From IMG/VR virus record IMGVR_UViG_3300010885_008624, positions 1 to 24,999 of that record: a DNA stretch of 24,999 nt, one strand, 5' to 3'. The position numbers were made by a program, and so were the translations under genes. Shown here in pieces: positions 1,702-23,843 of the stretch. Each line of letters starts with the position of its first letter. Within the stretch, counting starts at the first letter, position 1. The stretch is from a virus. The notes under the pieces were generated by a model. The model was not told the origin of the DNA and made no database searches. It was given only the letters and a program-made list of their open reading frames with translations.

Positions 1702-2450
1702 TGGTTTCTGCGACATGGGATGACGTGCCCCACCTGTCGAGCGAGCAAAAAGAAGCGCTGTGGTCCAGCATCCCGCCCTACCAGCGCGACGCGCGGTCCA
1801 AGGGTATTCCCCAGCTCGGCAGCGGCGCCATCTTCCCGGTGCCCGAGAGCGACATCGTGGTCGAGCCCTTTGAAATCCCGCGGTACTGGCCGCGAGCCTA
1901 CGGCCTGGACGTGGGTTGGAACCGCACCGCCGCAGTTTGGGGTGCGCACGACCGCGAGGTGGACTGCCTCTATCTGTTCTCGGAGCACTACCGGGGGCAG
2001 GCGGAGCCATCGATGCATGCGGCTGCCATCCATTCCCGAGGCAAGTGGATGCGAGGGGTGATCGACCCGGCATCCCGAGGGCGCGGACAACGCGACGGTG
2101 AGCAGCTCTTGCAGAACTACGTCGACCTTGGCCTCAACCTCTCGATGGCTGAGAACGGCGTTGAGGCTGGCCTGTTCGATGTGTGGGAGCGCCTGTCGAC
2201 CGGCCGGCTCAAGGTGTTCAAGACCCTCCAAAACTGGCTGTCCGAGTACCGCCTGTATCGCCGGGACGAGAAGGGCGCTGTCGTCAAGAAGGACGACCAT
2301 TTGATGGACGCGACGCGCTACTTCGTGGTGTCCGGCATCCACCATCTGGCGTGCGCGCCAGACGCCGCAGACCGCACCATGGCTGCAATCAAGGGCGCTA
2401 ACCGTGGCAAGTCGACGGTGCACGAGTACGACCCCATGGAGGACGCATGA
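1701..2450 (+). CDS. terL: terminase large subunit, C-terminal nuclease part (frameshifted)
   Basis: This is the RNase H-like nuclease half of the large terminase, in the -1 frame relative to the ATPase half. It begins with the conserved ATWDDVPHL stretch and PPYQRDARSKGIPQLGSG, then shows the acidic nuclease residues in LDVGWN (D70), VIDPASRG (D122) and DDHLMDATRY (D198, D199, D203). The first possible start in this frame is GTG at 1701, overlapping the upstream TAG, but the GGGAGGG purine run lies about 17 bases upstream, too far to be a good ribosome-binding site. A separate 249-residue polypeptide made by re-initiation is therefore possible but not well supported. The frame itself is open from 1674. 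The 3' end overlaps the lipoprotein gene by an ATGA. Confidence 0.82.
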   Translation: MVSATWDDVPHLSSEQKEALWSSIPPYQRDARSKGIPQLGSGAIFPVPESDIVVEPFEIPRYWPRAYGLDVGWNRTAAVWGAHDREVDCLYLFSEHYRGQAEPSMHAAAIHSRGKWMRGVIDPASRGRGQRDGEQLLQNYVDLGLNLSMAENGVEAGLFDVWERLSTGRLKVFKTLQNWLSEYRLYRRDEKGAVVKKDDHLMDATRYFVVSGIHHLACAPDAADRTMAAIKGANRGKSTVHEYDPMEDA

Positions 2451-2671
2451 AGCGCATCGCCATCATTCTGCTGCTCACCGGCTGTGCCACAGAGCAGGGC
2501 GGCCTATGGGAGCGCGCCGGCAGCACCAGGGCTGACTTCGACCGCGAGCACTACGCCTGCACCCGCGACACGCTGGCGATCGGCGCAGCGGCTCACCTCA
2601 ACCTCCCCTCTCATATCGCCACCTACAAGCTCTGCATGAAGGCGGCTGGCTGGACATTTCGCGAGGCTTGA
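2447..2671 (+). CDS. small predicted lipoprotein
   Basis: The 74-residue product has a short basic start (MKR), a hydrophobic stretch IAIILLL and the lipobox LTGC with C13 as the predicted lipidated residue, so it should be exported and membrane-anchored. The mature part has just two more cysteines (C38 and C63), which could pair, and ends in a CMKAAGW segment seen in small bacterial lipoproteins. It begins inside the terminase stop codon (ATGA), so it is translated with the packaging genes. It lacks the proline-rich body of an Rz1-type outer-membrane spanin and no inner-membrane partner is adjacent. A cell-surface role such as receptor masking is possible but is only a guess. Confidence 0.75.
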   Translation: MKRIAIILLLTGCATEQGGLWERAGSTRADFDREHYACTRDTLAIGAAAHLNLPSHIATYKLCMKAAGWTFREA

Positions 2672-2724
2672 TCCGATAGGAGACGGAATAGGCGTTTCAG
2701 CGCGGCCGGCATTATGGTCCGCGC
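2671..2724 (+). promoter_or_regulatory. conserved leader / putative phage promoter, copy 1
   Basis: This gap aligns without gaps over most of its length with 22211-22265. The shared parts are ATCCGATAGG at the 5' end, then AC[G/A]GAAT followed by a GC, then TATGGT at 2713-2718 followed by CCGCGC and the ATG at 2725. TATGGT is -10-like and sits 6 bases from the start codon. There is no Shine-Dalgarno, so transcription could begin at or near the ATG. GCGCGG (2700-2705) and CCGCGC (2719-2724) can pair, placing a small hairpin over the -10 and next to the start. No recognisable sigma-70 -35 box is seen. Confidence 0.45.
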
Positions 2725-2943
2725 ATGGGACTATTTGGCGGCACACCGACACCCTACGTTCCCCCGATGCCAACGGCACCGCCGCCGCCTCCGACGATGG
2801 CTGACCCCATGGTCAAGCAGGCTGCGCGCAATGTGCAGCAGAACGCGGCAGCGGCCAGCGGCTACGGCAGCACCATTGCCACGGGCGGGCAGGGCGTGAC
2901 CACGTACGCGCCGACCGAAAAGAAAGAGCTGCTAGGCCAGTGA
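2725..2943 (+). CDS. small proline-rich phage protein of unknown function
   Basis: The 72-residue product starts MGLFGG, has a proline-rich segment (TPYVPPMPTAPPPPP, about residues 10-24), a helical middle and a glycine-rich end finishing KKELLGQ. Small proteins with this make-up (MGLFG, polyproline, a glycine-rich turn, then LLGQ) are familiar from the gap between terminase and portal genes of podoviruses, with no known function that I can name. The ATG at 2725 has no ribosome-binding site but lies right after the putative promoter leader. It ends in TGATG, coupling it to the next gene. There is no export signal. Confidence 0.7.
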   Translation: MGLFGGTPTPYVPPMPTAPPPPPTMADPMVKQAARNVQQNAAAASGYGSTIATGGQGVTTYAPTEKKELLGQ

Positions 2944-3257
2944 TGGGCATCGGGACTCAGCGTCAATCAACCTACGTTCCGACCGTGGCGCCCCCCGTTC
3001 CGACAATCGCGGGTGGTCTAACTCCGGTGAAACTGGGCGACACTCGCATGTTCGACGGCGAGGAATACGAAAGCGATGGCGTGTTCGAAACCTTGGGGAT
3101 CAACGATCCGAGAACCATGACGACCAAGCCCATCGACATACCGGAAAAGGACTTCAAGACGCCGTATATCTACAACGACTTCAAACACACCGAGACACCC
3201 GTACCGGGCGGCTATCGGACAGAACGGTGGCGTAAAAAGACAAGGCCGATGAGCTGA
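2943..3257 (+). CDS. hypothetical phage protein
   Basis: I do not recognise a family. The 104-residue product is polar, with a proline-rich N-terminal part (TYVPTVAPPVPT) and an acidic middle (DGEEYESDG), ending in a basic RTERWRKKTR. There is no membrane segment. The ATG at 2943 overlaps the upstream stop (TGATG); a GTG directly before it at 2940 is an alternative that adds one residue. The stop is 2 bases before the portal start, so the gene is part of the same translational unit. By position it may be a minor head protein or portal-associated factor, but this is inference from neighbours only. Confidence 0.65.
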   Translation: MGIGTQRQSTYVPTVAPPVPTIAGGLTPVKLGDTRMFDGEEYESDGVFETLGINDPRTMTTKPIDIPEKDFKTPYIYNDFKHTETPVPGGYRTERWRKKTRPMS

Positions 3258-3259
3258 CC

Positions 3260-5005
3260 ATGCCGGACGGCGCAGTCTCCCTCCAGGACGCCAAAGACCC
3301 GTGGCTCCGAAATTACTTCATCAATCGCCTCGGAGCGATGGATAACGACCGCACGAGCTACTGGCTGACATGGAAAGACCTGGCGCAGAACTTCGCGCCC
3401 CGTCGCGGCAAGTTCCTGATTTCGAACAACGATTACACACGCGGTCGCCGGAAAGATCAGCGCATCATCGACAACACTCCAGCCATTGCCGGTCGCGTCA
3501 TGGCCTCGGGCATGATGGCTGGCATCAGCTCGCCGGCCCGCCCGTGGTTTCGCCTCAAGATGGCCGACGACGCGGCGAATGAGGAGAACGGCGCGCGGGC
3601 GTGGCTCGATGAGGTGCAGAAGCGCATCCTGCACATCTTCGCCAAGTCCAACCTCTACAACTGCCTGCACACGCTCTATGCCGAGCTGGGCACATTCGGC
3701 ACGGCTGTCCTGTGGGTGGATGAGGACGACGAAGACATCATCCGGGGCTACACGCTCACGGTCGGCGAATACTGGCTTGCCAGCTCCAGGCGCTTGGCCG
3801 TCGATACCGTCTATCGCACCATGTGGTGGACCGTTCGCCAGATTGTGGACGAGTTCGGCCGCGACAAGGTGAGCGAGGGCATCCGCTCGCTCTACGACAA
3901 CGGCTTGATGGACCTCGAATATGAGATCGTGCACGCCGTCGAGCCCAACCCGAACGCCGCTGCGAAGGGCCGGAAGTCGCCCGGCGCGTTCTGGAATGGC
4001 CACCTCTCCGACCGGATGCCCTATCGATCGGTGTGGTTCGAGCGCGGGCAGCAGGGCGAGCGGGCACTGCTCAAGGTGTCGGGCTATGACGAGTTCCCCT
4101 GCATGGCTCCCCGGTGGGAGGTGGCGGGCAGCGAGACCTATGGCTCGGGCAATACGCCGGGATGGCTGGCCTTGGGCGATTCGCAGTCCCTACAAATCCA
4201 ACAGCGCCGCAAGATGGAGTTCATCGACAAGCTCGTGAAGCCGCCCATGACGGGTCCGCCGAGCCTGGACAACAAGCCGTCCAGCCTCCTCCCTGGTGGA
4301 ATGACCATCGTGAGCGAGCAGGGGCCGCACGCTGCCTTCCGGCCGGCATTCGAGGTCAATCCTGCGGGTATGCAACCGCTCATCGCCGATATCATGGAGA
4401 CGCAGAACCGCATCAAGCAGGCGTTCTATGCCGACCTGTTCCTGATGATGGCGGAGAGCGACCGCCGCGAGATCACGGCGCGCGAGATCGACGAGCGCCA
4501 CGAGGAGAAGATGCTGATGCTGGGGCCGGTGCTTGAGCGACTCCATGATGAGCTGCTCGACCCGCTGGTTACGCGCGTCTTCAACATCTTGGGACGGAAG
4601 GGCGGCATCCCGCCGATGCCCGAAGGCATGCAGGCGTCGCATGTCCAGATCGAGTTCATCTCCATGCTGGCCTCGGCGCAGAAGGCGGCGGCGACGGGCT
4701 CCATCGAGCGGTATGTGCAGTTCGGCGCCCAGCTCGCCCAAGTCGGCCTGCCCGGCGCCCTCGACCGCATCGACGTGGACGGCACGATGGACGAATACGG
4801 CGAAATGACCGGCGTGCCGGGCAAGGTGATCGTCGACCTCAAGAAGGCCATGGCCGTGCGCGATGCGCGGGCCAAGCAGCAGCAGGGGCAAGAGACGCTC
4901 AACAACCTCCAGGCATTGGCGACGACGGCCAAGACGGCGGGAGAGATCGACGTGGGCGGAGGGCAGAATGCGGTGTCGGCCGCAATCCAGGGAGCAACGG
5001 CATGA
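3260..5005 (+). CDS. portal protein (head-to-tail connecting protein)
   Basis: The 581-residue product matches the podovirus head-to-tail connecting protein family, which forms the dodecameric portal at one capsid vertex through which DNA is pumped in and ejected. Recognisable stretches are the N-terminal WKDLAQNFAPRRGKF (about 38-52), the DNTPAIAGRVMASGMMAG and SPARPWFRL block (71-99), and a long helical C-terminal part with EITAREIDERHEEKMLMLGP and a charged Gln-rich tail. Length fits the family. The start at 3260 follows the previous stop by 2 bases. The C-terminus overlaps the next gene by an ATGA at 5002. Placement after terminase and before scaffold and capsid is the standard order. Confidence 0.93.
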   Translation: MPDGAVSLQDAKDPWLRNYFINRLGAMDNDRTSYWLTWKDLAQNFAPRRGKFLISNNDYTRGRRKDQRIIDNTPAIAGRVMASGMMAGISSPARPWFRLKMADDAANEENGARAWLDEVQKRILHIFAKSNLYNCLHTLYAELGTFGTAVLWVDEDDEDIIRGYTLTVGEYWLASSRRLAVDTVYRTMWWTVRQIVDEFGRDKVSEGIRSLYDNGLMDLEYEIVHAVEPNPNAAAKGRKSPGAFWNGHLSDRMPYRSVWFERGQQGERALLKVSGYDEFPCMAPRWEVAGSETYGSGNTPGWLALGDSQSLQIQQRRKMEFIDKLVKPPMTGPPSLDNKPSSLLPGGMTIVSEQGPHAAFRPAFEVNPAGMQPLIADIMETQNRIKQAFYADLFLMMAESDRREITAREIDERHEEKMLMLGPVLERLHDELLDPLVTRVFNILGRKGGIPPMPEGMQASHVQIEFISMLASAQKAAATGSIERYVQFGAQLAQVGLPGALDRIDVDGTMDEYGEMTGVPGKVIVDLKKAMAVRDARAKQQQGQETLNNLQALATTAKTAGEIDVGGGQNAVSAAIQGATA

Positions 5006-8062: not shown

Positions 8063-9463
8063 ATGGTTGCAGTCTCTACTCTTGTATCCGACCCCAGCAC
8101 CACGGCAGGCTGGCGGGCGGAAGGTAACGACTTCGCGGCACGTCAGGGTGACGGCGCGGACTATGCGGACCTGATCGCCAAGTCGATCACCCTCACGGGG
8201 CCTCCGGCTGGCACGGGCGTCAATGCCCAGTCCGCTATCCCGCGAGGTGGGGCCGGTGGCTTCGTGGCGACCTTCGCCTCGAACCAGTCTCCCGCCTCTG
8301 TCGCCACGCTCACGACCGTCAATCGAGGGATGACGCTCATCAACGGCACGGGCGCCGCAGTCACCATCGCGAGCACCGATCTCGTGATCGTGAACAAGCC
8401 CACGGCCCAGGCCGGGCTCGGCGTCGGCAACGAGTATGTGTCGTCTGCCGGCGTGTTGGCGGTCTCCTTCGCCAACCTGTCGGCCGGCTTCCTCACTCCC
8501 ACGTCGGCGGAGAAGTACGGCGTCATCGCCCTTCGTGGTCTCAACTCCGTCACGACCGTGCTCACGCCGGCCGCCGTGACCCTGAGCACCACGGCAGAGC
8601 AGCAGTTCTCCGTCACGGGCCTCCGTGCTGGCGAGCTGGTGAAGGTCAACAAGCCCACGATCCAGCCGGGCCTGGAGATCGTCGGCGCGCGAGTGGTGTC
8701 GAACAACCTTCTCGGCATCACCTTCGGCAACCTCACGGCTGCCACGCTCACCCCGACCGCTGGCGAAACCTACACTGTGATCTCGTTGGGCGGCCTCGAC
8801 GCCATCAACAACGATATCCAGTTCCAGGTATCGGCGGCGCCCGTAGCGGTGCCCACCCTGTCCTCGCTGGCGGGGACGCTGACCATCAGCAACCTCGCTG
8901 TCACCGACACGGTGAAGGGCGTCCAGAAGCCCACGAACCAGCTCGGTCTCATTGCCGGTGGCGGCTTCGTCTCCGCTGCCGGTGTGGGTGCCGTCGTGTT
9001 CGGCAACTTCACCACCGCGTCGATCACGCCGACCGCCAACGAGATTTATGGCGTGTCGGTCTTCCGGCCCAACCCGGCTGCCCCGCTTGTGGTGCAGGCG
9101 GTGACGCTCACCCCGGCATCTGTGGCTGCCAACACCACGGCAGAGCAGACTTTCGCTGTAACGAACGTCGTGGCTTCGTCCATGGTGTGGGTCAACAAGC
9201 CCACGGCACAGGCGGGCCTCGGCATCCTCGGTGTCCGCGTCTCGTCCGCTGGCAACATCGCGATCACCTTCGCCAACTTCACGTCGGCGACGCTGACCCC
9301 GACTGCCGGTGAAAGCTATCTGGTGGGCAACTTCCAGATGCCGCTCGATACTGCGGGTGGTGCTGTGATCCAGTCCGCCAGCATCGTCGAGACCACGACA
9401 TCGACGCTGGCGAACGCCATGCGTGCGGCGCTCGTGTCGGCCGGTTTCATCCCCGGCGCATGA
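8063..9463 (+). CDS. four-repeat beta-rich structural protein, probable capsid decoration or fibre
   Basis: The 466-residue product has a unique N-terminus (1-75), four divergent repeats of about 80-92 residues (roughly 76-160, 166-245, 252-335 and 345-422) and a helical tail that ends FIPGA. Each repeat carries a (N/Q)KPT motif (positions 111, 196, 288 and 378), a glycine-rich turn, a VxFxN(L/F) strand and an LTPTxxExY end. Ser/Thr/Val/Gly content and the periodic pattern suggest immunoglobulin-like or similar beta modules. It shares its ribosome-binding leader with the capsid gene, sits at the end of the head cluster and overlaps a glycosyltransferase-like gene by 4 bases. Capsid surface or head fibre is the best inference; a tail-surface role is the alternative. 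Confidence 0.75.
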   Translation: MVAVSTLVSDPSTTAGWRAEGNDFAARQGDGADYADLIAKSITLTGPPAGTGVNAQSAIPRGGAGGFVATFASNQSPASVATLTTVNRGMTLINGTGAAVTIASTDLVIVNKPTAQAGLGVGNEYVSSAGVLAVSFANLSAGFLTPTSAEKYGVIALRGLNSVTTVLTPAAVTLSTTAEQQFSVTGLRAGELVKVNKPTIQPGLEIVGARVVSNNLLGITFGNLTAATLTPTAGETYTVISLGGLDAINNDIQFQVSAAPVAVPTLSSLAGTLTISNLAVTDTVKGVQKPTNQLGLIAGGGFVSAAGVGAVVFGNFTTASITPTANEIYGVSVFRPNPAAPLVVQAVTLTPASVAANTTAEQTFAVTNVVASSMVWVNKPTAQAGLGILGVRVSSAGNIAITFANFTSATLTPTAGESYLVGNFQMPLDTAGGAVIQSASIVETTTSTLANAMRAALVSAGFIPGA

Positions 9464-10281
9464 TCTCCATCATCCTTCCAAGCAGGGGGCGGCCCGCCAG
9501 TCTGGCGCGGGCCGTCGCTTCGCTTGTGCGATGCGAGTGTGAGATCGTGGTTGGCCTCGATGAGGACGACCCCACGGCCGACGATGCCATGGAGATGCTG
9601 GACTATCCGCAAGTCAGGATCGTCCGCAGTTTCCGCAAGACCACGACGGCGCAGCTTTTCAACGTGCTGTCCGAACATGCCACGGGAAGTCACGTCATCG
9701 CCTTCCCGGACGACTACACCATGGACCAGCCGAACTGGTCGGAACTGGTTGAGGAGACCGTCGCGCGCCTTCCTGGAGGTTATGGGGTGGCGTACCTGCA
9801 AGACCCGATGTATCCGTACTTCGCCACCTTCCCCATTCTCTCGCGCGCCACCATAGCGCTCAACGGTGGGGCATTCTTCCCTCCGTACTTCCCGTTCCTG
9901 TTCGGTGACACCTACTGGAATGAAGTCGGCGTGATGAGTGGTCTGATCGTACGATCGGAGGCGTCGGTGACGATCCGCGCCGACACGGGCCATATCCATA
10001 CCTACCGGGACCTGAAGTTCTGGTCGGAGATGTACGACAAGACGCGCCCCCTTCGGGAGGATATCGCCATCAAGATCATCCGTGCCGCCTTTGGCGATGG
10101 GCAGCAGGCCGAGACGCTCATCACCACCCTGGCCGAACGGAAGGCCGCGCTGATCCGTCTTCATGCACCCAACATGACGCAGGAATTTTACGACAAATGG
10201 GAGAACAAGCACGGTGGATTCCACCATCCCGCCTATGCTGCCCTGAAGGCCAAGGCCGACAAATTCATGGAGATCGCATGA
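9460..10281 (+). CDS. family 2-like glycosyltransferase (GT-A fold)
   Basis: The 273-residue product opens with ISIILPSRGRPASLARAVAS, the nucleotide-binding first strand and helix of GT-A glycosyltransferases, and has acidic clusters at DEDD (34-37) and PDDY (83-86), the latter a DxD-like metal/sugar-nucleotide site. The C-terminal half is helical and basic, including YDKWENKHGGFHHPAY. There is no membrane segment, so it should act in the cytoplasm. It overlaps the repeat-protein stop by 4 bases and the next glycosyltransferase start by 4 bases. Lying in the virion operon, it may glycosylate a structural protein during assembly; modification of a host surface polymer is the alternative. Donor and acceptor cannot be read from sequence. 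Confidence 0.72.
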   Translation: MISIILPSRGRPASLARAVASLVRCECEIVVGLDEDDPTADDAMEMLDYPQVRIVRSFRKTTTAQLFNVLSEHATGSHVIAFPDDYTMDQPNWSELVEETVARLPGGYGVAYLQDPMYPYFATFPILSRATIALNGGAFFPPYFPFLFGDTYWNEVGVMSGLIVRSEASVTIRADTGHIHTYRDLKFWSEMYDKTRPLREDIAIKIIRAAFGDGQQAETLITTLAERKAALIRLHAPNMTQEFYDKWENKHGGFHHPAYAALKAKADKFMEIA

Positions 10282-11072
10282 CGTTCGTGGTTTTCGCTAC
10301 CCCGGCTTTCGACGGCACCGTGACGCTGGGCTACCTGACTTCGATGATGCGGACCACCCGCGTGCTTGACGAACGCGGGATCAAGTGGGAGCACGCGACC
10401 ATCGGCGGCGACCCCTATCTCGCCAAGGTCCGCAACGCGCTGGTATCCGCTGCATTGCAGCAGTTCCCGGACATGACGGACCTGTTCTTTCTCGACGCCG
10501 ACCTCGATTGGGACCCGCAAGCGGTCCTGAAGCTGCTCGACCATCCTTCGGAAGTGGCGGCGGCGATCTACCCCAAGAAGATGGACGCGCCGGACTTCCC
10601 CTGCGAGCTGGTCTACGAGGGTGCAGAGATCGTGGACGGCAAGCCGGTCGGCGGTTCGATGGTCGAAAAAGACGGCTGGTACAAGGCCCGCAAGGTCCCG
10701 ACCGGCTTTCTGCGCATCAAGCGGCAGGTTCTCGAAGCCATGGCATCCGTAAGCGGACGCTACAAGGACGGGACCAACGGCGGTGCGCTGTGCTGGAACA
10801 TCTTCGAGATGGGCTACTCTCCCGACAAGGAAGCGGTCGACGGCCTCGGCGAGTGGTGGGGCGAGGACTACGCCTGGTGCGAAAAGTACGTTCGTGGCGG
10901 AGGTGAGATATGGGTCTGGCCCGATGCCGAGTTCGGGCACCGCGGCCCGAAGACCTGGCGCAACAACCTGCTGCCCTTCGTCCAGAACGCCGCCGCCGGC
11001 CGGAACCTCAAGCTTGTGAAGTACGGCGGGCACGGCGAGGCGGATCAATCTTTCCCTGTCGCGGCGGAATAA
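10278..11072 (+). CDS. second glycosyltransferase-like protein (DxD motif)
   Basis: The 264-residue product has a different GT-A-like layout: PYLAKVRNALVSAAL (47-61), FFLDADLDWDP with the metal-binding D73-x-D75 (70-80), VAAAIYPKK, a PTGFLRIKR segment (141-149), GEDYAWCEK (195-203) and WPDAEFGHRG (214-223, H221). This order fits glycosyltransferase-like proteins of the type found in phage and capsule clusters. The ATG at 10278 overlaps the previous stop as ATGA and was preferred over an in-frame upstream extension that lies inside the previous gene. Two unlike glycosyltransferases in tandem suggest successive sugar additions. No sugar-nucleotide synthesis gene is nearby, so the host would supply the donor. 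Confidence 0.72.
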   Translation: MTFVVFATPAFDGTVTLGYLTSMMRTTRVLDERGIKWEHATIGGDPYLAKVRNALVSAALQQFPDMTDLFFLDADLDWDPQAVLKLLDHPSEVAAAIYPKKMDAPDFPCELVYEGAEIVDGKPVGGSMVEKDGWYKARKVPTGFLRIKRQVLEAMASVSGRYKDGTNGGALCWNIFEMGYSPDKEAVDGLGEWWGEDYAWCEKYVRGGGEIWVWPDAEFGHRGPKTWRNNLLPFVQNAAAGRNLKLVKYGGHGEADQSFPVAAE

Positions 11073-17864: not shown

Positions 17865-20800
17865 ATGGCCGATCCCGATCTCATCGCCCAAGCGCCACCG
17901 CTTGAAATCACGGTATCGCCGACCGCGAGGCCGCCGACCTTCACGCCGGAAGGGCGCACGGGTGGCGGCGCCGGTGCCGGGGGGCAGGCAGCCCCGACGA
18001 TTGGTGACGACTACTTGCGGCAAACGCAGGCGGAGCAGGCGCGACATGCTCGCGAGATACTGGGCGGTCTGGCTGAGGGCGACAAGCCAGCAGGCGGCGC
18101 AAAAGCTCCAGCGCAACCGACCGAGGCAGCCCCACAGACGTGGCAGGAAAAGGCCATAGCGGCGCGGAATGCGCTCGTGATGGCTCCCGTGACCGTTGGG
18201 AAGGCATACGTCGCCGCCAGCAAGGACGTGGCGCGCAGCCTGCCGCAGGCGCCGGCCGCCATCGTTGGGGGGGCTGGCGAAGCCGTTCGGCAACTCAGTC
18301 GAGCGGGCGCCTCGCTGGATCAGTGGCTGAGCGAAAAGACGGGGGGGATGATCGGCACGTCGCTCGATGAATACAAGACGTTGCTGAGGGCCGATCCCAA
18401 GACGGCGGCCGATGCAAACCTACCCGACGCGGAGTTGTGGAAGCGGATCGAAAAGAGCGGCAATGAGCTGCTGAAAAGCGTCGTGCCGTCGATCGGCAAG
18501 CCCGATACCGTGACCGGCGGCCTGATCCACGATGCGGCTCAGTTCCTGACCGGCATGGCGGTTGGCGGCAAGTTGCTAGAGGGCATGACTATCCCTATCC
18601 AGGGCTTCGGCAAGGCTGTTGCCACTGGTGCTTTCTCCGACTTTGCGGCGCGCGACCCGGATGCGGCCAAGCTCGCCGACCTGATCGAGAAGCACCCGGC
18701 GCTGAAAAATCCAGTGACTGGTTTCCTCCAGGCGAAGGAAGACGACCCCGAAGTAATGAAGCGCCTCAAGGCCGCCCTGGAGGGGGCGGGGATGGGTGTC
18801 GTGACGGAGGGCTTCATCCGTGGCCTTCGTGTCCTCAAGGCCCGCAACAAGGCCGGGCAGGCCGCTGGAAACGATGCCTCGCTGTTGACCAAGATGGAGG
18901 AGGACGCGGCGGCCAAGTTCGGTCGCATGTCGGATGAGGCCATGGCGTTGATTGGCGATCCGACCGCCCCGCTCGTGTCGGCCAGAACGCCGGGGCAGAA
19001 GGCATCCGTCGCGGCCAAGCGGATCGATGCCGCCGGCCGCGACTTCGATGGCGCACCGCTCCAGTCCCCGACAACGATCAAAGCCTATCACGGCAGTCCG
19101 TCCGAATTCACGTCATTCGATGCGGCCAAGATCGGCAGTGGAGAGGGTGGAAAGCTCACCGAGGGCACCGGGCATTATTTCACCTCCAACCCACTGCTGG
19201 CGCACGAGTACAAGGATTTCGCCAAGGGGCCGAAGCAGAACATCCCGAACGGCAAGGAAGGCGGACCGGGCCACCTCTATGAGGTTGAGCTGCACGTCAA
19301 GCCAGAGGAGCTGATGACGTGGCCGCGCATTGCCTTGGCGAAGCAGCCGCCAGAGGTGCAGGCGCTCGCCAAGGAATGGAAACTGACGGCCGCCGAGTCC
19401 GCATCCGGCCGTGAAATCTATGCCGCGATCAAGGCCAAGATCATGGCCAAGGATGCGACGCTCACCGAGGCGGCGGCGGAGAAGGAGACGGCCCGCATCG
19501 TAGGCGAGAAGGTTCCCGGATCGAAGTATCAAGAGCCGGACTTGCATGGCGGCCTGCATACCAACTTCGTTCTGTTTCCCGGCAACGAAAGTCGCGCAAA
19601 GGTGGTCCGGCGCAACGGGCAAGCCGTGCCAGACCCGAATGATACGCGATCCGCCGATGAGATCATGGCGGCGCTGGAAGCCAAGCTTGAAGCGAACACG
19701 TCGAATATCTCGACGCAGGAACTTGCGAACGGTTTGGTCAAGACCGTCGATGCTGGCGGCAATGACATCTATGTCAACTTCGCCCGGATCGACAGCCCGG
19801 AGGCGGTGAAAAAGACCATTGGATTGATGGCGGATGCCGGCCAAGCGCGGATCGACGCCAAGCGCGGCGGAGCAAAGCAGACCTTCCGGGAAATGGAGGG
19901 TCTGGCCGACGACCTTGGAATGGACGTGACTGACCTCCTGTCCCGTCGTTCCGGGGCGCCGATGAGCGCGGCTGAGGCGCTGGCGGCTCGCAGTCTTCTC
20001 GTGGCGTCAGGCTCTCGCCTCACTGAGTTGGCGCGGAACATCGCTGGCGGCACAGCTAGGCCGGCGGAGGAGTTCGCCTTTCGCCGACAGATGGCTTTGC
20101 ATGCGGCCATTCAGGCCGAAGTGATTGCGGCCCGCACAGAGACCGCCCGAGCGCTGGCGTCTTGGAACATTCCCCGAGGCGGAAGCCTGGAGGCGTCGAA
20201 GTCTATCCACGAGACATTGGAGGCCATGGGCGGGAGCGCCACGACGCACCAGCTTGCGTTGCGGCTGTCGCAGTTGAGCGCTCAGGGTCTTAACAGCCCG
20301 GCGAAGTTCAACGACTTCGTGCGCAAGAGCGCGACAGCGGCAACGATCGATGCTGCCATGGAGGCGTGGAAATCCGCACTCCTCTCGGGACCGACAACCC
20401 ACCTATCCAACATGTTCTCCAACACTTTGACCATGGGTGTGATGACCGGCGAGCGCCGCGTCGCTGCGATGATTTCCGACTTCCGTGGAACGGTCGACGG
20501 CGTGGCCGCTGGTGAGGCCGACGCCATGGTGCATGGCTTGGTCGAGTCGTCCAAGGACGCCTTTCGGATGGCGTGGGCTGCCTTGAAGACCGGAGATAGC
20601 GAGTTCGGCCGGGCCTCCGGTAAGGCCGACATGATGCAGACGCGGGCGATCTCCCGCGAGGCGTTGGGGCTGCCCGACAACGTATGGGGCAACGCGGTCG
20701 ACTATCTCGGGAAGGGCTTCAATGTCCCCTTTCGCTTGCTCACGGCTGAGGACGAGTTCTTCAAGACGATGACCTTCCGCATGGAACTTCACGCCCAGGC

Positions 20801-22211
20801 GCAGCGCGTCGCCGTATCGGAGGGTCTGACTGGCGAGGCGGCCTTCCGCCGCATGCGCGAGGTGATCGACAATCCACCCGAGGTGGTGAAACTGGCGGCC
20901 CAAGACTTTGCGTTGGCCGCGACCTACAATCGCGAGCTGACTGGAGCCTTGCAGAAGATCGGACAGGCGCGGGGCGATGATGGTGCTATGGGCCGCGCAC
21001 TGCAATTCGTGCTGCCCTTCTTCCGCACACCCGTGAACGTCTTCACCGCATCAATGGAGCGCTCGCCCCTCGCCCCTCTGACGGCGCAGTTTCGTGCCGA
21101 CGTGCAGGCAGGCGGAGCGCGGCAGGACTTGGCCCTAGCCAGGATGGCGACTGGAACGACAATTATGGCGATTGCAGCCGACCTTGCCGACCGAGGAATG
21201 ATTACGGGCAGCATCGGCCACTATCCCCAGGAGCGCGAGGCGCGCGAACGCCAAGGCATCCCTCAGTATTCCATCAAGATCGGCAACAAGTGGGTGAGTT
21301 ACAACAAGCTCGACCCCATCGCCATGCCGATGGCCGTGGCAGCAAACATGGCAGAGCTGGCCCGTCGTTTCGAGATCGAGCCGGACAAGGTGGATAGCGT
21401 CAAGGAGATCGTGGGGGCTGGCGTGGCTGCCACGGCTAAGGCTGCCCTAGACCGTTCGTTCATGCAGGGCACCGCCGGCATTCTCTCCGCTATTGAGAAT
21501 CCCGAGGAGAAAATGGATGCCTACTTGAAGTCGCAGATTGCCGGCTTCTTTACGCCTGCCATTTCCAACACGGTTGCCCAGCTCTCGGACCCGACGAAGC
21601 GCGAGACGTTCGATGCGCTCGATGCTATCGAGGCGCGTATTGCTGGCCTGTCACGCACGCTCATTCCACGGATGGACCTGTGGGGGCGAGAGGTTCGCAT
21701 CGCGGAGAGCGGCGCCGGTCGGGTGTTCGATGTCATTTCGCCGATCAAGGTCCAGAGCGACAAGCCCAACCCCATCGACGCCGAGCTGATCCGGCTCAAC
21801 TTCTTCCCCAAGCGGATCGACAAGAAGGGCCATTGGGACGGGGCGCCGGTCGAGTTCTCGAAGTATCCCGAGGTTTATGCCGCATATGCGAAGCTGGCCG
21901 GAAACGATCTTAAAGAGCCGCAGTACGACGGCAAAGGCATGATGGACTTCCTCAATTCGGTGGTCGAGGGCAAGTCGTCCTACAACGACTATTGGAAAAT
22001 CCTCACAGACGGTGCCGAGGGTGGAAAAGCCCAGTTCATCCAGAAGGTCGTGCAGGACTATCGTAAGGCCGCGCGGCGAGAGATTGAAGGTGATCCGCGC
22101 TTCACTAAGTTCCGCCAATATCTGGTCAAGCAGGGCGGCGACGAGGCGGCGAAGAAGGCCAAGACGCAAGAGGAGCGCGACATCGCGCCCTCCATTCCCC
22201 GCCTTCAATAA
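17865..22211 (+). CDS. large ejection protein with polyvalent-type ADP-ribosyltransferase domain
   Basis: The 1448-residue product is the last and largest core gene, close in size and position to T7 gp16 (about 1318). The first 400 residues are helical and low in recognisable domains. Residues about 404-586 match the ADP-ribosyltransferase domain of phage polyvalent proteins: YHGSPSEFTSFD (408-419), KIGSGEG (422-428), GHYFTSNPLLAHEY (436-449), LYEVELHV (471-478), and NFVLF (567-571) near the end. H409 and Y438 fit the H-Y type of active site; the third residue is not certain. The C-terminal half has SGPTTHLSNMFSNTLTMGVM (841-860) and PFFRTPVNVFTAS (1051-1063), stretches typical of large phage internal proteins. 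No lytic transglycosylase is visible. Confidence 0.82.
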   Translation: MADPDLIAQAPPLEITVSPTARPPTFTPEGRTGGGAGAGGQAAPTIGDDYLRQTQAEQARHAREILGGLAEGDKPAGGAKAPAQPTEAAPQTWQEKAIAARNALVMAPVTVGKAYVAASKDVARSLPQAPAAIVGGAGEAVRQLSRAGASLDQWLSEKTGGMIGTSLDEYKTLLRADPKTAADANLPDAELWKRIEKSGNELLKSVVPSIGKPDTVTGGLIHDAAQFLTGMAVGGKLLEGMTIPIQGFGKAVATGAFSDFAARDPDAAKLADLIEKHPALKNPVTGFLQAKEDDPEVMKRLKAALEGAGMGVVTEGFIRGLRVLKARNKAGQAAGNDASLLTKMEEDAAAKFGRMSDEAMALIGDPTAPLVSARTPGQKASVAAKRIDAAGRDFDGAPLQSPTTIKAYHGSPSEFTSFDAAKIGSGEGGKLTEGTGHYFTSNPLLAHEYKDFAKGPKQNIPNGKEGGPGHLYEVELHVKPEELMTWPRIALAKQPPEVQALAKEWKLTAAESASGREIYAAIKAKIMAKDATLTEAAAEKETARIVGEKVPGSKYQEPDLHGGLHTNFVLFPGNESRAKVVRRNGQAVPDPNDTRSADEIMAALEAKLEANTSNISTQELANGLVKTVDAGGNDIYVNFARIDSPEAVKKTIGLMADAGQARIDAKRGGAKQTFREMEGLADDLGMDVTDLLSRRSGAPMSAAEALAARSLLVASGSRLTELARNIAGGTARPAEEFAFRRQMALHAAIQAEVIAARTETARALASWNIPRGGSLEASKSIHETLEAMGGSATTHQLALRLSQLSAQGLNSPAKFNDFVRKSATAATIDAAMEAWKSALLSGPTTHLSNMFSNTLTMGVMTGERRVAAMISDFRGTVDGVAAGEADAMVHGLVESSKDAFRMAWAALKTGDSEFGRASGKADMMQTRAISREALGLPDNVWGNAVDYLGKGFNVPFRLLTAEDEFFKTMTFRMELHAQAQRVAVSEGLTGEAAFRRMREVIDNPPEVVKLAAQDFALAATYNRELTGALQKIGQARGDDGAMGRALQFVLPFFRTPVNVFTASMERSPLAPLTAQFRADVQAGGARQDLALARMATGTTIMAIAADLADRGMITGSIGHYPQEREARERQGIPQYSIKIGNKWVSYNKLDPIAMPMAVAANMAELARRFEIEPDKVDSVKEIVGAGVAATAKAALDRSFMQGTAGILSAIENPEEKMDAYLKSQIAGFFTPAISNTVAQLSDPTKRETFDALDAIEARIAGLSRTLIPRMDLWGREVRIAESGAGRVFDVISPIKVQSDKPNPIDAELIRLNFFPKRIDKKGHWDGAPVEFSKYPEVYAAYAKLAGNDLKEPQYDGKGMMDFLNSVVEGKSSYNDYWKILTDGAEGGKAQFIQKVVQDYRKAARREIEGDPRFTKFRQYLVKQGGDEAAKKAKTQEERDIAPSIPRLQ

Positions 22212-22265
22212 TCCGATAGGGCACAGAATGCGCCATCCCGCCAACCCATCCTATAGTGCCGCACC
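22211..22265 (+). promoter_or_regulatory. conserved leader / putative phage promoter, copy 2
   Basis: This 55-base stretch aligns with 2671-2724: ATCCGATAGG (22211-22220), AC[G/A]GAAT, a GC block, and a -10-like TATAGT at 22252-22257 followed by GCCGCACC and the ATG at 22266. TATAGT is one mismatch from TATAAT and lies 8 bases before the start codon. There is no Shine-Dalgarno, so the expected start of transcription is close to or at the ATG. It stands between the core genes and the tail fibre, a natural place for a new transcription start. Confidence 0.5.
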
Positions 22266-23843
22266 ATGACGGTTTCGAGCACCACCTCCAGGGTCGTCTA
22301 CAGCGGCAACGGCGCTACGACCGTCTGGCCGTTTAACTTCAAGGTCGCGACCGCCGCCGACCTCGTGGTGATCTACACCGACACGACGGGCACCGATTTC
22401 ACCCTCTCGACCTCGCAATATACCGCGACGGGCTTCAACCTGGATGCCGGCGGAAACGTCACCTATCCCACGGTCGTATCCGGCGCCTCGCCCATCGCCA
22501 CGGGGACGAAGCTCACCATCTATCGCAGCGTCGCGCTGACGCAGCCGGCTTCGATCTCCAATCAGGGGGCGATGTGGCCCCAGGTGATCGAGGCCGCGCT
22601 CGACCGCCTCACCTACATGGCGCAGGCGGTATCCGATGCCGTCTCCCGCGCCTTGGTCATCAGCCCGACCGACAGCACGGCAATCAACAATCTACCGAAC
22701 GCCACCGAACGGGCAAATTCATTCCTCGCCTTCGATGCCACGGGACAGCCGATAGCGGCCACGAGCATCTCGATTACGGCTGTCACCACCTGGCTCGCGA
22801 CGAATTTCCTTCTCGTAGGCACGTCTGCCGCGACCGCTCTAGCGGCCCTTGGCGGCCTCGCGTCGAGCCTGTTCACGACCCGAGGGGATATTCTGGTGCG
22901 TGGTGCCAGCGTGGCGCAACGGCTCGCCGTGGGCACGAACGGCCAAGTTCTCACCAGCAACGGCACGGACCCGGCATGGGCTACGCCCGCAACCGTCACG
23001 GTCCCGTTCCCCGGTGCCCGACAAACGGTGCCAAGCGGCCCGGTCGATACCGCCGGCCTGCCGACATTCTTTGCTGCCACCTTCACCGGCCTTACGATCA
23101 CGGCGCAGAACATCAGCGCGAGCTATCCGCTTGTCGCTACCGCCGCTAACGGGTGGAGCGCGACCACTGGATTGCCGGTCGATACCGTAGGCTACAGCAG
23201 CACCAACCCCGTATGGCCGGCGGCCACGATCAACCGCGCGGCGACGGCTCCCAACTTCGCCTATCTGACGATTGCCGCCGGTGTCCTCACGCCGTTCTAC
23301 ACGTTGCTGGCTCCGATCTATCAATGGGGCGGAACGCCCGCGACGACAAGCGGGCAGTTCACGTTCAACATATCGGAGATGCGCGGCTACCTTGGGAACG
23401 GCTCGACCGCTCCACAGACAAATGCCGTCTTCGTCGGCGAGGTGGCGACCAACGGGACGGACATCATCTCGACTGTCTGCTACGCCTACAACGGTGGATA
23501 CGAGAAGGCATTCACCGCGACGCTCCCGGCTGCGGCCACCGCTGTCTCGTTCAATCACAACATCGGCGTGCCGCCTTGCGTGTTCGATTTCCGCATCCGC
23601 TGCAACGCGACGGAAGCGGGTTATGCCGCTGGAGACATTCTAAGCTTTCGCGATATCAACGGCGACAACAGCGCGCAGTTCATGCAGCAGGCTCTTGAAG
23701 TCACGTCCAAGGCCATGAGCTTCATTGCCAACTCTCCCAACCCCTATTGGGTAATCAACAAGGGCACGGCTGCCAGAACGGCGCTGACGCTGGCGAAGTG
23801 GGACTATGCGCCTGTGGCACGTCGTGGTTGGGGAGGAGCCTAG
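22266..23843 (+). CDS. tail fibre protein with T7 gp17-like N-terminus
   Basis: The 525-residue product has an N-terminal attachment domain (about 1-130) like T7 gp17: YSGNGATTVWPFNFKV (12-27), LVVIYTDTTGTDF, a YTATGFN strand, LTIYRSVALTQP (83-94), and the helix IEAALDRLTYMAQAVSDAVSRAL. This part binds the tail tube. The middle includes GDILVRGASVAQRLAVGTNG (207-226) and VLTSNGTDPAWAT, a repeat-like motif common in phage fibres. The C-terminal 250 residues are beta-rich with no recognised receptor domain and probably decide host range. The ATG at 22266 lacks a ribosome-binding site and follows the conserved leader. No intramolecular chaperone motif is evident. Confidence 0.82.
   Translation: MTVSSTTSRVVYSGNGATTVWPFNFKVATAADLVVIYTDTTGTDFTLSTSQYTATGFNLDAGGNVTYPTVVSGASPIATGTKLTIYRSVALTQPASISNQGAMWPQVIEAALDRLTYMAQAVSDAVSRALVISPTDSTAINNLPNATERANSFLAFDATGQPIAATSISITAVTTWLATNFLLVGTSAATALAALGGLASSLFTTRGDILVRGASVAQRLAVGTNGQVLTSNGTDPAWATPATVTVPFPGARQTVPSGPVDTAGLPTFFAATFTGLTITAQNISASYPLVATAANGWSATTGLPVDTVGYSSTNPVWPAATINRAATAPNFAYLTIAAGVLTPFYTLLAPIYQWGGTPATTSGQFTFNISEMRGYLGNGSTAPQTNAVFVGEVATNGTDIISTVCYAYNGGYEKAFTATLPAAATAVSFNHNIGVPPCVFDFRIRCNATEAGYAAGDILSFRDINGDNSAQFMQQALEVTSKAMSFIANSPNPYWVINKGTAARTALTLAKWDYAPVARRGWGGA

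Follow-up and report, generated by a model that had tools for sequence, protein, structure and literature searches.

Two intergenic gaps in the window (the whole stretch of 24,999 nucleotides of viral DNA analyzed here) carry the same promoter-like site, and sites of this class recur in related phages and prophages and on the chromosomes of Reyranella/Enhydrobacter. From these sequence comparisons, we consider it likely that the sites are late promoters that join a sigma70-type -10 element to an activator box, belong to a class shared with the host, and yield leaderless or nearly leaderless messages.

The window comprises the late module of an epsilon15/BPP-1-like podovirus, with genes for terminase, portal, tail proteins, internal virion proteins, and a tail fibre. 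Gaps 2672–2724 and 22212–22265 share TCCGATAGGNNACRGAAT, followed by TATRGT located 6–8 nt 5' of an ATG. By our own gene calls, on which the count and the lengths rest, five gaps in the window exceed 12 nt, and these two rank among the three longest. The relevant features are as follows.

407–727, + strand: small winged-HTH (MarR-like) protein, preceding the terminase genes
2669–2671, + strand: TGA, stop codon upstream of copy 1
2671–2692, + strand: upstream box of copy 1, ATCCGATAGGAGACGGAATAGG; relatives hold GACCNNAATNGG at the homologous position
2713–2718, + strand: -10-like TATGGT of copy 1, 26 nt from the AAT of the box to TAT and 6 nt to the ATG at 2725
2725–2943, + strand: 72-aa gene MGLFGG... 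(phrog_831), first in the portal operon, predicted to be leaderless; the gene start is conserved in relatives
3260–5005, + strand: portal (head-tail adaptor) gene, within the operon of promoter 1
22209–22211, + strand: TAA, stop codon upstream of copy 2
22211–22232, + strand: upstream box of copy 2, ATCCGATAGGGCACAGAATGCG
22252–22257, + strand: -10-like TATAGT of copy 2, 25 nt from the AAT of the box and 8 nt to the ATG at 22266
22266–23843, + strand: tail fibre/spike gene with a T7-fibre-like N-terminus (phrog_1640 and others)

Two overlapping ORFs (937–1701 and 1701–2450) encode the terminase large subunit, and the same split occurs in L007. The product of positions 17865–22211, an internal virion protein of 1448 aa, weakly matches ADP-ribosyltransferase (ART-PolyVal); an 845-aa protein of the related phage G007 matches ART-PolyVal above the cut-off. 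Two genes that appear by eye to be glycosyltransferase-like lie amid the structural module (9460–11072). A near-identical contig pair, G002 (the contig of L006) and G001 (the contig of L004), extends the window on both sides. G001 has ERF-like and NinB-like genes, as read from the sequence, which suggests a lambdoid, temperate-type early region. The early region also encodes a near-pure GYGDGSG-type repeat protein (L064, ~2300–3020 of the deposited contig), adjoining a pentapeptide-repeat-like protein.

The decamer ATCCGATAGG occurs perfectly at 2671–2680 and 22211–22220 and at no other site without mismatch. Its first A is in both copies the final base of the preceding stop codon, and it is followed in the same register by ACGGAAT (2683–2689) or ACAGAAT (22223–22229). 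Taking the A of the ATG at 2725 as +1, the box of copy 1 spans about -54 to -33. Both -10-like hexamers have the A at -11 and the T at -7 of a sigma70 -10. Neither gap has a -35 hexamer 16–18 nt 5' of the -10, and a sigma70 consensus promoter scan and a terminator search of both gaps returned nothing. There is no Shine-Dalgarno-like sequence within 20 nt of either ATG; an AGGAG within the box of copy 1 is 43 nt from the ATG and is followed by no start codon of its own. A -10 hexamer 6–8 nt 5' of an ATG that lacks a Shine-Dalgarno is the arrangement expected of a leaderless promoter. These observations confirm what an earlier note had described from the sequence, namely two gaps with a common 5' box, an AC(G/A)GAAT block, TATRGT, and no Shine-Dalgarno.

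Taken by itself, the pair in the window is suggestive, being modestly beyond chance. Over 17 bases, the best ungapped alignment of the two gaps has 14 matches, a level attained by 2 of 1000 dinucleotide shuffles. When all TA(N3)(T/C)-N5–9-start sites of a genome were scanned blindly, 8 of 200 shuffles attained the score of the window pair. Across IMG/VR, TCCGATAGGNNACRGAAT is found in 24 stretches, with TAT and ATG in place only in the window's species (L003–L005); the others were rejected as chance matches in unrelated sequence. The earlier note had held that a lack of further copies before other operons would count against its proposal. Within this phage that lack technically holds, as the near-identical contigs G001 and G002 have no box copy with a -10 in place beyond the same two, but relatives carry two to three copies each.

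As judged by sequence comparison, it is these relatives that make the case for the site pair decisive. Phages and prophages whose portals are 60–72% identical have GACCNNAATNGG, N19–20, TATNN(T/C), usually N6–8, and ATG, before the same two genes (the MGxF gene ahead of portal, and the tail fibre) and sometimes before other late genes. At 60–68% portal identity, the gap 5' of the homologous MG(L/I)F gene contains a diverged yet alignable site, consisting of a variable left part, GACC-NN-AAT-N-GG, 19–20 nt, TATNNT, 6–8 nt, and ATG; the TATNN(T/C) lies at the same spacing as the -10 of copy 1. Second copies are found 5' of the tail fibre in G007 (TTCTGTTGACCNNAATAGG), G010, and G005 (ATCCATTGATCAGAATCNG, three copies), and 5' of another late gene in G016 and G017. 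In the blind scan, the top-ranked pair was this one or its analogue in the window, G007, G005, G016, and G017, and in the last four the score was reached by none of 100–200 shuffles. The resident prophages of named and MAG genomes likewise have the site 5' of MGxF, and those of G033 and G034 have it also 5' of the tail gene MPALPTIQPSF and those of G035, G036, and G037 also 5' of a gene downstream of portal. A long inverted repeat, GCTGTGCCGCCGCGTC ... GACGTGGCGGCACAG, occurs at L015:1080–1165 and also in L012, L016, and L017, and its right arm overlaps the portal start codon.

The fibre promoter has TATAAC as its -10 in G007, G005, G010, G016, G017, G036, and G037, and thus no T at -7. The fibre gene is inverted and divergent in G016, G017, G036, and G037, yet the box and TATAAC are kept at equal spacing, with ~30 nt separating the -10 from the ATG. 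Because of these ~30 nt, a leaderless structure, although apparently usual at MGxF, would not be obligatory for the class. The shared geometry of the relatives, with a different sequence, supports the earlier suggestion of late-gene promoters with no -35, an upstream box, TATRGT, and a probable start at or next to the ATG. The conserved upstream box of that proposal also stands, but ATCCGATAGG is not its most widely conserved part, as relatives share only the right half, GACCNNAATNGG.

Box sequences agree better within genomes than between them. In eleven genomes with two to three copies each, mean agreement was 17.5 of 20 positions within a genome versus 12.2 of 20 between genomes, a difference equalled by none of 20,000 permutations, whether near-duplicates were removed or not. 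Each genome or lineage has its own left half of the box, and the right half (GACCNNAATNGG) is common to all relatives. The copies were gathered through their shared core, which raises the between-genome value, so this bias works against the within-genome result.

The class extends to Reyranella/Enhydrobacter chromosomes, with 6–93 copies per genome (controls, 0–1), counts that include a few prophage-borne copies (two to three per genome). The box of prophages L165/L166, CCATTGCCCANAATAGG, is present with at most one mismatch 93, 63, and 28 times in G036, G037, and G079 (reversed-pattern control, 0), and at most once per genome elsewhere in the genus sample. The pattern GACCNNAATNG-N17–23-TATNNT occurs 33, 32, 10, and 11 times in G033, G034, G035, and G039, and 7, 6, 8, and 29 times in G038, G040, G072, and G097 (controls, 0–1). 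For the prophages of G033–G039, the same or nearly the same version of the box is repeated in their own host chromosome. The two versions are identical in G033/G034 (GACCGGAATCG), G035/G039 (GACCATAATCGTCG), and G036/G037 (CATTGCCCANAATAGG) and nearly so in G038 (chromosome GACCGTAATAGG/CG, prophage GACCGTAATGCG); the prophage of G040 has a weaker match (GACCATAAGTC). A search for TGACCATAATAGG in 65 genus genomes yielded three copies in two genomes only, and hence the hosts of G007 and G010 are not evident among these genomes.

In 90% of the host copies of G036 there is an A at -11, and in 86% a T at -7; the search pattern had specified neither. In G036, an ATG lies 5–8 nt 3' of the -10 in 21 of 27 sites. 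The figure is only 9 of 26 in GACC-type hosts, so leaderless use cannot be called a constant feature. Where the gene start is more distant, as in DUF5681-like genes with AGGAG before the ATG, the spacing between box and -10 is unchanged. The regions upstream of glcE-like genes in G033, G038, and G040 conserve the box and the -10 but little of the sequence between them, and the stretch from the -10 to the gene diverges. Box copies also lie at orthologous places before the response-regulator gene of G035 and G039. The earlier idea of a phage-specific promoter class is contradicted by these chromosomal copies of the same architecture, 6–93 per genome and orthologous at the glcE-like gene in three hosts; activator dependence, its other suggestion, may still apply.

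Several further elements accompany the chromosomal sites. In hosts G033–G040 (L264–L292), TTTATT is found 56–118 nt downstream of 15 of 26 sites, often in a small CCATTTATTTAATGG-like palindrome, and such sites precede argS, ilvD, htpG, glcE, and a response regulator (genes read from the sequence). Box promoters lie directly 5' of DUF5681-like (assignments below the Pfam cut-off) or HNH endonuclease-like genes at L215, L216, L273, L220, L224, and L266. The Reyranella MAG G036 has dispersed intergenic repeats of 200–400 bp, mostly between convergent genes (L214–L243, e.g., L217, L230, and L235), in which two inverted box copies ~60 bp apart are followed by conserved hairpin-rich sequence (GTGGATTCGTGGACTCC...CCGATGCCATCGGCATCGAACCGGTCCACA). 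The repeats that were tested had no Rfam match, and an Rfam search of ten host loci found no family.

We propose that each of the two gaps is a phage late promoter, one serving the portal operon and the other the tail fibre. Host RNA polymerase would use the sigma70-type -10 (A at -11, T at -7), with the missing -35 replaced by a ~20-nt box centred near -41 and bound by a putative activator in the class II position. Transcripts would begin with the A of the ATG or no more than ~2 nt away from it, and so be leaderless or almost leaderless. The promoter class would be common to the host lineage (Reyranella/Enhydrobacter-type Alphaproteobacteria), in which it may drive dozens of chromosomal transcripts; the specificity of the activator would drift between host lineages, and the phage's spelling of the box would follow that of its host lineage.

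We favour a host factor as the probable reader of the box, since the site sits at orthologous host genes and the search showed no phage regulator present in all relatives. A phage-encoded activator or sigma factor might read the box instead, the chromosomal copies then being phage-linked dispersed elements that respond to induction or infection. Copies are present in 10 of 12 genomes with a close portal relative and in 1 of 53 others (Fisher p 4e-9), so that the many-copy genomes nearly coincide with those carrying the phage clade; this co-occurrence could mean either host phylogeny or a dependence of the copies on the phage. The specificity of the box also drifts inside one genus, unlike that of a global regulator, and most G036 copies lie between convergent genes in the dispersed repeats, in some cases alongside HNH or DUF5681-like genes. 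However, the orthologous copies at the glcE-like gene and at the response-regulator gene of G035/G039 look like host regulation, and G079 has 28 copies but no portal match, albeit in a fragmentary genome. A candidate phage regulator, the winged-HTH protein, precedes terminase in the window, G007, G004, G008, L014, L019, and L170, but was not found in the available sequence upstream of the late genes in G033–G039. The protein at 407–727 was rejected as a universal activator, as it was not found 5' of the late genes in most relatives. On balance, we regard a phage-encoded reader as rather unlikely. For the host-factor reading that we prefer, the main unexplained point is that so long a box should change quickly within a single genus, which would be unusual for a global regulator.

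It is very improbable that the shared blocks are some other DNA or RNA signal (a packaging, replication, or processing site) with TATRGT present by chance. Some host copies do sit between convergent genes, but the conservation of A at -11 and T at -7 does not depend on the box, the spacing to the -10 is fixed at 19–20 while that to the gene start varies, and the phage sites lie 5' of late genes and are oriented with them. A promoter for a phage single-subunit RNA polymerase, with the TATAGG-like part of the box as start site, is barely credible: ATCCGATAGGAGA faintly resembles the T7 sequence CACTATAGGGAGA, but relatives do not conserve the TATAGG-like part, the site also has chromosomal copies, three large proteins of G007 and two of the window had no polymerase match, and no polymerase is apparent in the ORF list of G007 (the window genome being incomplete).

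In the window itself the box reads ATCCGATAGGNNACRGAAT, a loose fit to the GACCNNAATNGG core (GAC-GGAATAGG; CACAGAATGCG). Compared with the host-class core (GACCNNAATNGG, N19–20, TATNN(T/C)), which relatives' copies match in full, the window copies keep the spacing and GAAT and have GACC altered (GAC-, CAC-). The window's box, searched for in 76 genomes, gave nothing beyond chance and no many-copy host. The pair nevertheless agrees with the class in geometry, in gene context, and in the identity of its copies within the genome. As its right half is aberrant and its host is absent from the 76 genomes, we infer its membership from homology of position and not from sequence match alone, and suppose by extension that the window's own host has the same promoter class.

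The system offers a testable case of phage late promoters that would track a host promoter class lineage by lineage. Matching phage and chromosome versions of the box might make it possible to pair phages with their hosts by promoter spelling, and the box copies point to a putative transcription factor with 6–93 or more sites per genome. More tentatively, and with considerable doubt, Reyranella-type bacteria may possess a large leaderless promoter regulon under a factor whose long recognition box drifts fast between species, with their temperate podoviruses rewriting all their late promoters to match. If this is true, promoter spelling would be a determinant of host range at the level of transcription.

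In the literature searched, we found nothing relevant on Reyranella promoters and no mapped transcription starts for the group. The podoviruses Epsilon15, BPP-1, and Caulobacter RapA (Uetakevirus, Rauchvirus) have homologous portals (38–43% identity) and the same structural gene order, but within 1.5 kb of the portal gene they lack sites of this class. Sinorhizobium meliloti has 171 mapped leaderless promoters (PMC3616915). As in these alphaproteobacterial host promoters, the -10 described here is predicted to set the start at the A of AUG with no Shine-Dalgarno; unlike them, it is accompanied by a long lineage-specific box of ~14–20 nt near -41. The late promoters of phages P2 and 186 depend on the Ogr/B activator and its TGT-N12-ACA site (PMC3931495). 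By inspection, TGT-N12-ACA is absent from the box sequences of the window copies and relatives, and no Ogr-like zinc-finger activator was noticed in the ORF list of G007 or in the proteins scanned. The likeness to P2/186 is that several late operons of a temperate phage have in common an upstream site outside the sigma70 type, activator-dependent in P2/186 and putatively so here, and that such sites recur before late operons in relatives. The two systems differ in the sequence of the site, and here the messages appear to be leaderless and the host chromosome bears dozens of sites of the class.
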